DNA of 5,334 nt from Dehalococcoidales bacterium (lineage in GTDB: Bacteria > Chloroflexota > Dehalococcoidia > Dehalococcoidales > UBA2162). The stretch spans positions 1,002,882 to 1,008,215 of the forward strand of contig CP070800.1 in the NCBI GenBank assembly GCA_020343555.1. Reading direction: 5' to 3'. Of this stretch, positions 1 to 4,197 are shown piece by piece; position 1 is the stretch's first letter, and each line of letters starts with the position of its first letter. Below the pieces are notes generated by a model. It was not told where the DNA came from. It saw only the letters and a program-made list of their open reading frames with translations, and searched no databases. The position numbers were made by a program, and so were the translations under genes.

Positions 1-217
1 GCTTTCTTGACTCGACATCGTTGCGATTTGTGCCGTAGTTGCCGATGAGAGGATAGGTCATTGTAACGATCTGGCCTTTGTACGAGGGGTCGGTGAGGAT
101 TTCCTGGTAGCCGGCCATGCTCGTGTTGAATACTACTTCGCCAGACCGTTCTCCGGTTGCGCCAAAGGAAGTGCCTTTGAAGATAGTGCCGTCTTGCAGT
201 GCTAATCTTGCTTCCAT
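1..217 (-). CDS. carA: Carbamoyl-phosphate synthase small (glutaminase) subunit, N-terminal part, cut by window edge
   Basis: The first 72 residues are visible, starting at ATG 217-215 (minus) and running off the left edge. CarA binds CarB and hydrolyses glutamine to supply ammonia for carbamoyl phosphate, used for pyrimidines and arginine in the cytoplasm. The visible part is the small-subunit N-terminal domain. It begins [13 protein letters not shown] and carries the family hallmarks [19 protein letters not shown] (residues 27-45) and the following [18 protein letters not shown]. The class I glutaminase domain with its catalytic Cys-His-Glu lies outside the window. No clear Shine-Dalgarno site or promoter precedes the ATG. 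Instead the sequence directly upstream codes for an MmgE/PrpD protein on the other strand, so the native carA leader appears to be missing. The family call is near certain; whether the locus is functional is not. Confidence 0.93.
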
Positions 218-637
218 GTTCCAGTTCCAATCGGCGACGCCCAGTTCAGCGTACCTTACTGTGTAGCCGTTGCCCTTGTCAGGGGTAAAATTACTCTTGA
301 AGATTTTACCGATGAGACGATTAAAAGAGAAAATATCCTTGAAGTCGCCCGTAAGGTGACCGGTGAACTTGAAGACTCCTGGACCAAGCACGGCGTATCA
401 CCGGGCAAGCTGGTAATCACGATGAACGACGGCACAGGGTGCTCCGAATACGTTGAAGACTTCCTCGGCAGCGTGGGAAACCCGATGTCCTACGATGACT
501 GCGCCAGGAAATTCCGCGAATGCTCGCCCTTCGCCATCAGCCCTCTTGCTTCAGAAAAGGTCGAGGATATAATCGACCTTATTCGTAACCTTGAAAAGCA
601 GGAAGACGGCACACTACCGATCAAACTAACTGGATAA
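218..637 (+). pseudogene. MmgE/PrpD family protein, C-terminal fragment lacking its 5' two-thirds
   Basis: The plus frame is open from just after a stop at 203-205 to TAA 635-637. From about 218 it reads as an MmgE/PrpD C-terminal part: [20 protein letters not shown], then a DFTDETI segment, a V-x-I-T-M-N-D-G-T strand, GNPMSYDDCARKFREC, and a final helix EKVEDIIDLIRNLE. About 140 of the usual roughly 450 residues remain. The family includes 2-methylcitrate dehydratase (PrpD) and related dehydratases, but the substrate cannot be told from this piece. No start codon with a ribosome binding site precedes the conserved block. A GTG at 356 would only give a 93-residue stub starting mid-domain. The missing front is replaced by the 5' end of carA in opposite orientation, so this is either a genomic rearrangement remnant or an assembly chimera. 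The two lengths of coding sequence otherwise look undamaged. Confidence 0.85.
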
Positions 638-800: not shown

Positions 801-840
801 GATTCTAATTTGACCGACTATCTTAAGGAGATTGATAAGA

Positions 841-2157
841 ATGACCCAAAATATCGATGAGACACAGAAACTGGTAGATGAAATTGAAAAAAGACATGGC
901 AAAACCATTGAAGAAATTGTATCGGAAAGAGAAAAAAGGGTTAGAGACGCCCTGGAACTGAAAGTACCTGACCGGGTACCGGTAACGGTGGGGACTGGGG
1001 CTTTCGCAGCGAAATATGCCGGACTGAAAGCTTCCGCCGAATACTACGACCAGGCAGGATACCGGGAAGCCTGCAAAAAAATGCTGCTGGACTTCGAACC
1101 GGACAACAGCATGTTTTTTGGAGGTGTGTCGGGCACCTTCCTTGAATTGATCGATGAAAAGCAGTACAAGTGGCCCGGTGGCACTCTCCCTGATGATATA
1201 TCCATGCAGTTCGCTGAAGCCGAATACATGAAAGCGGATGAATATGATATCTTTCTTGACGATCCTTCCGATTTCGTTCTTCGGTATTATCTTCCCCGGA
1301 TCTACGGTCTTCTCGCTCCTCTGCCCAAGATCGATCCGTTGAGGAACATGATCTTCGGCAACCTCGGCCTACTCCAGGGACTCGCCGGTACGCTGGTATC
1401 GCCGGAATTCAAGTATATCGGTCAGAAACTCGAAAAGGCGATGAAGGAACAGGAACGGGTGAGAGCGGAATATGCGGACTTTGCCGCCGAGATGGCGAAA
1501 ATCGGTTACCCAGCGCCGGGATTCGGTGGTCGTTCGATCATGTTCACTCCCTTCGATACCATCTCTGACAAGCTGAGAGGTATGAGGGGAATTTTTCTGG
1601 ATATGTACCGGCAGCCGGACAAGCTCCTCGAAGCCTGTGAGAGGGTCAAGCAGTGGTGGAAAGACCAGTGCACGCCAGCCATCCCTGATCCCAGGGGCAA
1701 TCCCAGGCGGGCTGGCATGCCTTTGCACCGGGGTTCGGATGGATTCATGTCCAAAGAACAGTTTGAGAAATTCTACTGGCCTGAATTGAAAGAATGCATT
1801 GAGTTTAATATTTCAATGGGCTATCTGGCAGCTCCTTTCTGGGAAGGCATCTGGGACGAACGGCTTGAATACCTGCTCGATCTACCGAAAGGCAAGGTTG
1901 TCTTCCATTGCGAAAAGACGGATGTCTTCAAGGCGAAGGAAATAATCGGCGACCACATGTGTATCCAGGGTGGCGTACCTCCGACGATTCTCCAGACAGG
2001 TTCGACCCAGGATGTCGAGGAATACTGCAAGAAGCTCATAAAAGAGGTCGGGAAAAACGGCGGTTACATCATGGGTGCCGGCAGTTCAATCGACTACGCC
2101 AAACCGGAAAATATTAAGGCGATGATCGATACCTGCAAAAAGTACGGATGGTATTAG
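841..2157 (+). CDS. URO-D / MtaA-like family protein, probable corrinoid-dependent methyltransferase relative
   Basis: This 438-residue protein has the N-terminal R-V-x-x-A-L-x-x-K-x-PDRVPV signature (residues 33-48) of the uroporphyrinogen decarboxylase superfamily. It is not HemE, because the Arg-rich HemE active-site motif near the N-terminus is absent. It resembles the cobalamin:coenzyme M methyltransferase branch (MtaA, MtbA, CmuA), whose members move methyl groups between a corrinoid protein and a thiol using a zinc site. A candidate metal site is His356-Cys357 (in VVFHCEK). Cys374 lies 17 residues on. The usual third Cys of an apGCGi-type motif appears as Ser415 (GAGSSID). The length exceeds MtaA (about 340) and matches the longer unassigned anaerobic URO-D paralogues. 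I chose ATG 841 because AAGGAG at 825-830 lies 10 nt upstream; the TTG at 832 is only 1 nt from it. It is the first gene of a two-gene unit with its own promoter. The substrate is unknown. Confidence 0.9.
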   Translation: MTQNIDETQKLVDEIEKRHGKTIEEIVSEREKRVRDALELKVPDRVPVTVGTGAFAAKYAGLKASAEYYDQAGYREACKKMLLDFEPDNSMFFGGVSGTFLELIDEKQYKWPGGTLPDDISMQFAEAEYMKADEYDIFLDDPSDFVLRYYLPRIYGLLAPLPKIDPLRNMIFGNLGLLQGLAGTLVSPEFKYIGQKLEKAMKEQERVRAEYADFAAEMAKIGYPAPGFGGRSIMFTPFDTISDKLRGMRGIFLDMYRQPDKLLEACERVKQWWKDQCTPAIPDPRGNPRRAGMPLHRGSDGFMSKEQFEKFYWPELKECIEFNISMGYLAAPFWEGIWDERLEYLLDLPKGKVVFHCEKTDVFKAKEIIGDHMCIQGGVPPTILQTGSTQDVEEYCKKLIKEVGKNGGYIMGAGSSIDYAKPENIKAMIDTCKKYGWY

Positions 2158-2168
2158 AGGAAAGCGAC

Positions 2169-2783
2169 GTGTCGAATCCCAATGAAATCGAGCTGCCGGA
2201 ATTCGATGTCTTTTTCGACTATCTCTGACCGTTCGTCTATAACGCGGCGGTCTGGCTGCAGAATGTAGAAAGGGAGACAGGTGAAGAGCTTCCGGTAAGG
2301 TGGCGGTACTTCTCCCTCGAACAGAATAATCATTCTCCTGATCCGGAAAAGAAGGTCTGGGAAAATAACTCTGCTAGGACAAGAGGGATCGATGCCTTTC
2401 GTGCTGCCGAAGCAGTCAGGAGGCAGGACGTAGACCTGTTCAAGGTATTCCACAAACTGCTGCTGAATGCCGTTCACAAGGAACGCCGTGACATGACAAA
2501 TACTGAAGTCCTGAAAGATATCGCTGAAAAAGCCGGAGCGGATATGAACCGGTTCCTGAATGATTTCAATGACCGTACGATTCTCAACAGGCTAGCCGAA
2601 GACCACTTTTACGCCGTGAACGAACTGAAGGTATTCGGCACACCAACATTCGTGTTCAACGGTAATAATCCCGTTTTCCTGAAGGTTAACCTTTCCGATG
2701 ATGAAAACAGCTATGATCTTTTTAAGGAGTTTCTTCAAATCGCCGAGAACAGGAAGAACGTGCTTGAGATAAAGCGACCGTAA
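2169..2783 (+). CDS. DsbA/FrnE-like thioredoxin-fold selenoprotein (TGA 2226-2228 read as selenocysteine)
   Basis: Read through the single in-frame TGA, this frame encodes 204 residues. Strand FDVFFDYL (12-19) leads to Sec20-Pro-Phe-Val-Tyr, the place of the catalytic Cys-Pro-x-x in DsbA/FrnE-type oxidoreductases. A helix follows, then WRYFSLEQN (45-53), typical of the FrnE-like group. Next come a helical insertion (about 70-150) and the cis-proline loop FGTPTFVF (156-163, Pro159). There is no signal peptide, so it is probably cytoplasmic. No other stop interrupts the frame and the protein contains no cysteine. GTG 2169 is preferred because GAGG at 2157-2160 lies 8 nt upstream; ATG 2148, overlapping the URO-D gene, would add 7 residues but has no clear ribosome binding site. 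ATG 2493, with AAGGAA at 2478-2483, gives only a 96-residue stub without the active site. It is coupled to the URO-D gene by an 11-nt gap. Likely a selenol-dependent redox or transferase enzyme; the partner is unknown. The alternative is a point-mutated pseudogene. Confidence 0.85.
2237..2268 (+). promoter_or_regulatory. Candidate bacterial SECIS element directing selenocysteine insertion
   Basis: Lower stem: C2237-A2241 pairs with T2264-G2268 (5 bp, one wobble). An internal loop follows (2 nt and 4 nt). The upper stem GCGGC 2244-2248 pairs with GCTGC 2255-2259 (one G-U). The apical loop is GGTCTG, 2249-2254. The loop begins 20 nt after the UGA at 2226-2228. In E. coli fdhF the SelB-bound loop contains the same GGUCU, 18 nt after its UGA. 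The hairpin is inside the coding frame, as bacterial SECIS elements are. Its role would be to recruit SelB with selenocysteyl-tRNA. A competing 5-bp stem (GACCG 2227-2231 with CGGTC 2248-2252) overlaps the UGA. No folding energy was calculated. Confidence 0.75.
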
Positions 2784-2986: not shown

Positions 2987-3032
2987 ACAAATCGAAAAAC
3001 TGCCATCCTGAGTTCCGATGTAATCGATTAGC

Positions 3033-3119
3033 TGTCATCCTGAGGACGACGTAGGAGGACGAAGGATCTCCTCTCTTAATCGAATGAGATTCTTCGGTCG
3101 CAAGCTCCCTCAGAATGAC
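3033..3119. repeat. Imperfect inverted repeat, MITE/REP-like element between convergent genes
   Basis: The left arm starts TGTCATCCTGAGGA and ends GACGAAGGATCTCCTC; the right arm starts GAGATTCTTCGGTCG and ends CCTCAGAATGAC at 3119. Each arm is an imperfect reverse complement of the other: TCATCCTGAGG against CCTCAGAATGA, and CGAAGGATCTC against GAGATTCTTCG, with a short AT-rich centre near 3077-3085. A further partial arm, TGCCATCCTGAG, lies at 3001-3012. No transposase is present, so any movement would need one elsewhere. It could also end transcription of the dehydrogenase gene on the minus strand. The rest of 2846-3165 holds no gene that I can see. Confidence 0.7.
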
Positions 3120-3165: not shown

Positions 3166-4197
3166 TTATGGTTTCAAAAGTACCTTCATTCCCCTCCCAG
3201 CAAGAAGGTCATGGTACGCCTTGTTGACTTCCTCGAGAGGTCTGATCGAGATCAGTGGTTCCAGATCGAGTTCGGACAGGAGGTTGACTGACCTCGGAAA
3301 ACAGTATGGTGAGATGAGGGTGCCTTTCACGGTCAGTTCTTTCCCACCCGGATATGAAGAAGGAAAGCTGATGTCCGTACCGGGTGGATAGACCGCCACC
3401 AGGACAACGATCCCACCTCTGCCTGCCAGGTCGCAAGACTGCCTGGCAACGGCAGGTTTCCCACTGGCATCGAAAACCCGGTCGAATCCCCTGCCTTCTC
3501 CGAGGATCACCGCCGCTTTTAGCAGGTCTTCATTCAAAGGATCGATCACGACGGTTGCGCCAAGTTGTCTTGCCAGTTCTCTCCTTGCTTCTACCGGCTC
3601 GGAGACCAGCACTTTAGTCGCTCCGGCTCTCCGGGCAACCTCCAGTATCAGGATCCCTATCGGCCCGGCGCCCAGGATAGCTACCGTATGTCCCGGTTTG
3701 ATCTCAGCCTGGTCGACCGCATGAACGGCCACTGTCAGCGGCTCAAGCACAGCTCCTACTTCCAGGCTTACATTATCAGGGAGTTTATATACTGCATTGG
3801 CGTGGTACAGCGCGTATTCGGCATAAGATCCGGTAGCGGGAATAGGTCTTTCACAGAAGTGCTCCATCATGTTCCGGCAGTAATAGCAGGTGCCGCAGGG
3901 AGTCCGGAAATTCATCGCCACTCTCTGTCCAATCTCGATGTCCTTCACGTTGCTGCCAACGGCAACAACAGTTCCCGACGCCTCGTGTCCGCCGATAAGA
4001 CGGCTGATATCTACGCCTTCGGGAACCTTTCCCCAGAACGATGAACCCGATGTATAGGCAGGATCGATGCTGTGAAGTTCGCTGCCGCATATCCCGCAAT
4101 AAGCTATTTTTACCTTCACCTGATTGGGTGCCGGTTCCGGCGGTTCGGGGATATCCTGCACATTGAATCCACCTTCTGTTCTGACAGCCGCTTTCAT
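3166..4197 (-). CDS. Zinc-dependent medium-chain alcohol/polyol dehydrogenase (sorbitol/threonine dehydrogenase-like)
   Basis: This complete 343-residue cytoplasmic oxidoreductase should interconvert an alcohol or polyol and its carbonyl with NAD. Catalytic zinc ligands are Cys37 (GICGSELH), His71-Glu72 (GGHEASG) and Glu152 (LEPLTVAVHA). The structural zinc lobe has all four cysteines: 101, 104, 107 and 115. The Rossmann nucleotide site is GAGPIG (176-181), and Glu200 at the end of the second strand suggests NAD rather than NADP. Length and motifs match the sorbitol, threonine and butanediol dehydrogenase group. Substrate cannot be told. The start ATG 4197-4195 is firm: a perfect AGGAGGTGA (4213-4205) lies 7 nt upstream. 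It converges with the selenoprotein unit and has a same-strand gene 95 nt upstream, so it may or may not share its transcript. Between them, AACTTATC/GATAGTT (4236-4253) forms a weak bulged palindrome that might be an operator. Confidence 0.95.
   Translation of the reverse strand: MKAAVRTEGGFNVQDIPEPPEPAPNQVKVKIAYCGICGSELHSIDPAYTSGSSFWGKVPEGVDISRLIGGHEASGTVVAVGSNVKDIEIGQRVAMNFRTPCGTCYYCRNMMEHFCERPIPATGSYAEYALYHANAVYKLPDNVSLEVGAVLEPLTVAVHAVDQAEIKPGHTVAILGAGPIGILILEVARRAGATKVLVSEPVEARRELARQLGATVVIDPLNEDLLKAAVILGEGRGFDRVFDASGKPAVARQSCDLAGRGGIVVLVAVYPPGTDISFPSSYPGGKELTVKGTLISPYCFPRSVNLLSELDLEPLISIRPLEEVNKAYHDLLAGRGMKVLLKP

Follow-up and report, generated by a model that had tools for sequence, protein, structure and literature searches.

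The locus and its read-through frame

We analysed a stretch of 5,334 nucleotides (nt) from a Dehalococcoidales bacterium (assembly GCA_020343555.1, contig CP070800.1), called the window below, which carries a gene for a DsbA-like thioredoxin-fold protein with an in-frame TGA codon near its 5' end. An earlier note on this DNA had described one frame with a single TGA, and the frame does run from GTG 2169-2171 to TAA 2781-2783 with TGA 2226-2228 as its sole in-frame stop (Table 1). The residues around this codon read FFDYL-U-PFVYNAAVWL, where U stands for selenocysteine (Sec), followed further on by WRYFSLEQN and then by FGTPTFVF. With a Cys letter set in the place of Sec, the read-through protein matched the DSBA family PF01323 at 66.6 bits against a cut-off of 25.6 (E 3.3e-18). 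The match covers residues 13-170 and thus spans the TGA, so that the same family lies on both sides of it, as the earlier note had claimed. None of the NCBIfam models was found at or above its own cut-off, either for the window protein or for the relatives that were also searched. The predicted Sec20 is the lone redox residue, and the protein has no Cys elsewhere; in a structure model, residue 20 sits directly ahead of helix 1. Pro159 in the FGTPTFVF loop is presumably the cis-Pro, by analogy with the family.

Table 1. Features of the window, with positions counted from its first letter.
Feature	Position	Strand	Basis
Upstream neighbour, URO-D/MtaA-like protein, 11 nt from the gene, stop 2155-2157	832..2157	+	Neighbour of L001 92.5% identical
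Shine-Dalgarno-like AGAGGA, 7 nt 5' of GTG 2169, reaching back into the upstream gene's stop codon	2156..2161	+	Read from the sequence
Read-through coding sequence, predicted single-Sec DsbA-like protein (PF01323), 204 residues, Sec at position 20	2169..2783	+	Frame, PF01323 match, homologue column
In-frame TGA, residue 20, very probably read as selenocysteine	2226..2228	+	Column TGA in 44, Cys in 36 of 80 loci
Candidate bacterial SECIS upper hairpin GCGGC-GGUCUG-GCUGC, apical loop 2249-2254	2244..2259	+	Folding, bSECIS limits
C-terminal stub as recorded (P0002), 175 residues, first codon CTG, without the active site	2256..2783	+	Database record
FGTPTFVF, residues 156-163, thioredoxin-fold loop with Pro159	2634..2657	+	F156, G157, P159, T160 and F163 invariant (83-row alignment)
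Downstream neighbour, zinc-dependent medium-chain dehydrogenase	3166..4197	-	Neighbour of L001 91.5% identical

TGA and Cys codons in one column

The homologue set consisted of the best 80 of 119 loci found in a one-genome-per-species collection with a profile of close relatives. Below, the 45 TGA forms are the window together with 44 of these loci, and the 36 Cys forms are the remaining loci of L001-L080. When the 80 loci were aligned to the window protein, the column of the in-frame stop held TGA in 44, TGC in 27 and TGT in 9, with no Trp codon and no stop codon other than TGA among them. The TGA therefore falls where the family has its nucleophilic Cys, as had been proposed, and the alignment suggested as a check returned a TGA or Cys codon in 80 of 80 loci. 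The nearest relative, L001, which comes from an independent assembly and has 77% amino-acid identity, carries the identical TGA; a codon shared with L001 and found in 44 of 80 loci is not a product of chance. The 15 codons 5' of the TGA comprise 9 identical, 4 synonymous and 2 amino-acid-changing ones between the window and L001, and the frame is open to its normal end in 45/45 TGA forms, with 184-200 residues beyond the TGA.

A match at E 1e-20 was present in 13 of 156 genomes of the nearest relative's order. Twelve of them have exactly one TGA, which at the DNA level always occupies the same column (L001-L003 are counted again among these), and one has none. This exception, L105 (reverse strand), has TGC in the column. 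The codons of L105 3' of its TGC have diverged from the stem sequence of its relatives, a natural Sec/Cys comparison. SAR202-titled relatives read U-P-W-V or U-P-F-V, and according to record titles the family spreads over Chloroflexota and Thermomicrobiota. Two named strains are among the carriers of the TGA form, Candidatus Lucifugimonas marina JH1073 (L080) and Thermalbibacter longus CFH 74404 (L053). On a quick tree, in which long branches were joined, the Sec/Cys state requires 5 changes, 2 of them forced by starred branches. TGA is the gene's own final stop in 5/45 TGA forms vs 19/36 Cys forms, a contrast that may reflect mere genome composition.

Selenocysteine machinery in relatives

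Genes for Sec decoding accompany the TGA forms. A tRNA-Sec above the Rfam cut-off was found in 42 of the 44 TGA-form genomes (all except G035 and G038) and in 3 of 14 controls, and selB above its cut-off in 39 of the 44 and in 2 of the 14. Both selA and selD were present in each of the 6 TGA-form genomes searched for them (controls 1/14 and 2/14, respectively), every one of these selD genes having an in-frame TGA of its own. G001, the genome of the nearest relative, has selA, selB, selC (tRNA-Sec) and selD.

Seven genomes (G004, G009, G018, G021, G025, G027 and G033) gave two tRNA-Sec matches each at E 1e-9; the lower-scoring match of each pair (52-62 bits) may belong to a different long tRNA. 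G005 has two selB matches above the cut-off in a single genome.

A hairpin resembling a selenocysteine insertion sequence

Downstream of the TGA lies a candidate upper hairpin of a selenocysteine insertion sequence (SECIS), with a stem of 5 base pairs (bp) and 20 nt between the TGA and the loop. Its folding energy is -8.8 kcal/mol for the upper part with short flanks and -14.5 kcal/mol with the lower stem. We take the loop, GGUCUG, to resemble that of E. coli fdhF. The hairpin falls within the general limits for bacterial SECIS elements (bSECIS) given in the accessible text of PMC13188914, namely a loop of 3-9 nt, a stem of 4-16 bp, G in the first two loop positions, a spacing of 16-37 nt and a minimum free energy of -7.5 or lower.

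A strict form of the hairpin was found in 37/45 TGA forms vs 1/36 Cys forms, the codons at stem positions differ between the two (GCA 29/45 vs 1/36; CTG 38/45 vs 5/36), and the mean z of the fold energy is -1.14 for the TGA forms vs 0.15 for the Cys forms, all three contrasts counting related sequences as if they were independent. Synonymous recoding, which drew on codon usage pooled from the same stretches of TGA and Cys forms together, left the strict form in a mean of 12.8/45.

Truncated database records

The record for the window DNA is the C-terminal stub P0002, which starts at residue 30. The earlier expectation that annotation would reduce the gene to such a stub was thus correct, but its predicted start at ATG 2493 was not, since the recorded start is CTG 2256. 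P0014 is taken to be the corresponding stub recorded for L001. Among the 120 matches listed of 479 for the window-protein query, 41 start after the column; the other 79 include it and show Cys in 76 cases and Trp in 3. Among the 120 listed of 429 for the SAR202 member P0122, 7 include the column, each of them with Cys, and the other 113 lack the active site. These classes were assigned by regular expression. The family seems common, and we infer that the 113 are TGA forms. If so, the 'DsbA family protein' on record for much of the Chloroflexota of seas and sediments is an inactive one, which a curated family model would put right.

Weighing the selenocysteine reading

The Cys/TGA column, the Sec machinery of relatives and the SECIS-like hairpin together strongly support the reading of the TGA as Sec, and the earlier call of a Sec enzyme is upheld to that extent. 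From the sequence evidence, we consider the window gene to be a Chloroflexota selenoprotein gene, in which SelB- and hairpin-directed insertion of Sec at UGA 2226-2228 would give a thioredoxin-fold protein 204 residues long that belongs with the single-Cys DsbA-like proteins of the DR2335 type; for this joint reading, group membership included, we estimate a probability of roughly 0.93.

Several observations weigh against it. The searches for Sec genes cover the genomes of relatives, the window's own genome not being among them, and those for selA and selD covered just 6 of the 44 TGA-form genomes. In addition, selB lies above its cut-off in 28/36 Cys-form genomes, so that Sec machinery alone cannot predict whether a genome has the TGA or the Cys form; many lineages with the Cys form seem to retain Sec for use elsewhere in the proteome. 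The general limits for bSECIS elements are permissive: they are passed by 45/45 TGA forms but by 29/36 Cys forms as well, and by a mean of 40.5/45 TGA forms after recoding (20 recodings). As for the strict hairpin form, it is missing from 8/45 TGA forms, L001 included, and for the window alone the z of the fold energy under synonymous recoding is just -0.73. RNAalifold gave no consensus hairpin for the 45 TGA-form sequences because the stem register shifts between clades, and the loop position was for this reason measured sequence by sequence. A stem held at fixed columns is 86.7% paired vs 85.6 for shuffles, with 71.7% still paired when the partner is slid by -3; given this small margin, covariation was not used as support. 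Finally, a non-Cys residue in the column, named in the earlier note as an argument against Sec, occurs in none of the 80 loci but does occur in three metagenome proteins (P0003, P0041 and P0062), which have Trp there (3 of the 79 spanning matches listed).

These Trp residues would be expected if the UGA were decoded as another residue, either Trp as in genetic code 4 or Cys, the latter being compatible with the Cys homologues. Against such decoding, the column has a Trp codon in 0/80 loci, a tRNA-Sec is present in 42/44 genomes, and the strict hairpin tracks the TGA forms rather than the Cys forms. Moreover, 5/45 TGA-form genes end in TGA themselves, so UGA still serves as a stop there. The Trp cases are probably TGA codons translated with code 4 at gene calling, and we regard decoding as a residue other than Sec as very unlikely. 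Even less credible is a pseudogene, in which the TGA would be a true nonsense stop and the remainder of the gene would be decaying. The database record of the window DNA as a C-terminal stub alone agrees with this explanation, but the TGA is common to 44/80 loci with no other stop codon in the column, all 45 TGA forms are otherwise open to their normal end, and the residues 5' of the TGA are conserved. A mutation in a single genome cannot explain a TGA shared across clades, which largely refutes a pseudogene for the family.

It is similarly improbable that the gene has two products, with a stub from CTG 2256 or ATG 2493 functional by itself and read-through a minor event. Called starts lying after the column in 41/120 and 113/120 of the matches listed for the window and SAR202 queries, respectively, speak for a stub. 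However, strand 1 and the catalytic residue are missing from the stubs, whose starts vary from homologue to homologue, and the window stub begins with CTG; the stub starts look like choices of the gene caller.

Genomic neighbourhood

The two genes flanking the selenoprotein candidate (Table 1) have close counterparts beside L001. Of 106 loci, only L001 and its duplicate L094 gave a match to the URO-D neighbour at E 1e-15. In the set of 45 TGA-form loci, an RNase III-like gene is immediately downstream in 22, an FtsY-like gene lies further downstream in 14, and a CCA-enzyme-like gene is next upstream on the opposite strand in 13, the names having been assigned by reading the sequences, without a family search. 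Since no pathway common to the neighbours emerged, the neighbourhood was discarded as evidence of function. Elsewhere in the window, a 93-residue frame at 356-637 (+) has a sub-threshold match to the C terminus of MmgE/PrpD (26.9 vs 32.1 bits) and overlaps the 5' part of the carA frame 2-391 (-); it is perhaps a gene remnant. Two 23-nt direct repeats, 83% alike, occupy 2990-3044 in the gap 3' of the gene and are perhaps dispersed intergenic repeats.

Proposed chemistry and the resolving thiol

In the mechanism that we propose, SelB with Sec-tRNA would bind the hairpin 2244-2259, and the bound complex would insert Sec at the UGA to complete the thioredoxin-fold protein. The selenolate of Sec20 would then be the nucleophile attacking a disulfide, a peroxide or an electrophile. 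As the protein has no second Cys, the resulting selenenyl-sulfide would need an outside thiol for its resolution, either a small thiol or another protein. Resolution by an outside thiol is also the case for monothiol redoxins and kappa-class glutathione S-transferases.

In a search bearing on the resolving thiol, neither bshC nor mshC above its cut-off (485 bits) was found in any of the 44 TGA-form genomes (0/44 for each). Sub-threshold mshC matches occur in 42 genomes, with best scores of 294-345 bits in 34, 193 bits in one and 392-410 bits in seven. We take the 294-345-bit and 193-bit matches to be cysteinyl-tRNA synthetase, while the seven higher-scoring ones may be mshC-like; 5 of those seven genomes are titled Thermomicrobiales, Thermomicrobiaceae or Thermalbibacter.

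The most far-reaching interpretation is a large Chloroflexota/Thermomicrobiota family with a lone Sec and no resolving Cys, a small or protein thiol as partner (not bacillithiol and mostly not mycothiol), no NCBIfam model, frequent recording as a stub, and a SECIS element that shapes part of helix 1. Whether or not its motif was already listed in 2008, such a family could represent a new biochemical class (monoselenol redoxin or transferase), although we hold this tentatively and at somewhat less than even odds. Monoselenol catalysis could be studied well on a thioredoxin-fold protein of this type, whose single Sec has no Cys beside it, and L105, a Cys form within the same order, gives a matched comparison.

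Comparison with known systems

The nearest solved structure is that of DR2335 from Deinococcus radiodurans (7dk9, 7dka), a single-Cys DsbA-like protein comparable to the window protein in its lone redox residue, but with Cys in place of Sec and from Deinococcota. The earlier label 'DsbA/FrnE-like' held in its DsbA part, given the PF01323 match, and was loose in its FrnE part. FrnE (DR_0659) shares the DsbA-like thioredoxin domain and, in the available text of PMC8945050, is predicted to be cytoplasmic and has CxxC, whereas the window protein has U-P-F-V, no CxxC and no further Cys. Rv2466c (PF22234; Pfam name mycothiol-dependent nitroreductase) also differs, as the window protein scores 20.9 bits vs a cut-off of 27 and mshC is not above its cut-off in the TGA-form genomes. 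Among other candidates, TsoY (NF047643, UxxV motif) gave no match for P0001 at E 0.001 nor for four relatives at 0.01, and the DsbG-like/Rcas_1661 model (NF041057) reached 20.7 bits vs a cut-off of 190.

The earlier note knew of no described selenoprotein family with the UPFV form, but two catalogue entries, each compared here by domain and motif, make it doubtful that the family is undescribed. In the accessible text of PMC2398784 (Table 2, PLoS Genet 2008), the Global Ocean Sampling (GOS) family 'DsbA 3' is listed under pfam01323 with UxxV; it counts 5 selenoproteins, from 3 marine samples, as well as 72 homologues with Cys, and the window has U-P-F-V on PF01323. The accessible text of the 2026 review PMC13188914 (Table 1) lists 'DsbA-like protein form 2' under PF01323 with DxxUP and the representative MDP6049977.1, to which D-Y-L-U-P of the window corresponds; its bracketed name, 'crotonase/enoyl-CoA hydratase family protein', differs from the window protein, which has no crotonase domain. 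Because D-Y-L-U-P-F-V fits both motifs, the window family has probably been counted in published selenoprotein catalogues before. In the searched literature, as far as its text was accessible, UxxV together with 'selenoprotein' occurred only in these two papers and DxxUP only in PMC13188914, and term searches of their accessible main texts returned neither 'Chloroflexi' nor 'Chloroflexota'. The available texts of PMC1088965 and PMC9312934 assign a UxxC motif to the older DsbA-like selenoproteins. The available text of Peng 2016 (PMC5029168) reports 41 organisms with 'DsbA-like' selenoproteins without separating the forms, and that of PMC1794560 reports 3 selenoproteins in Chloroflexi without naming them. 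To these catalogues, the present analysis adds the spread over Chloroflexota and Thermomicrobiota, the constraint on the hairpin, the single Sec without further Cys, and the observation that databases often cut the protein short.
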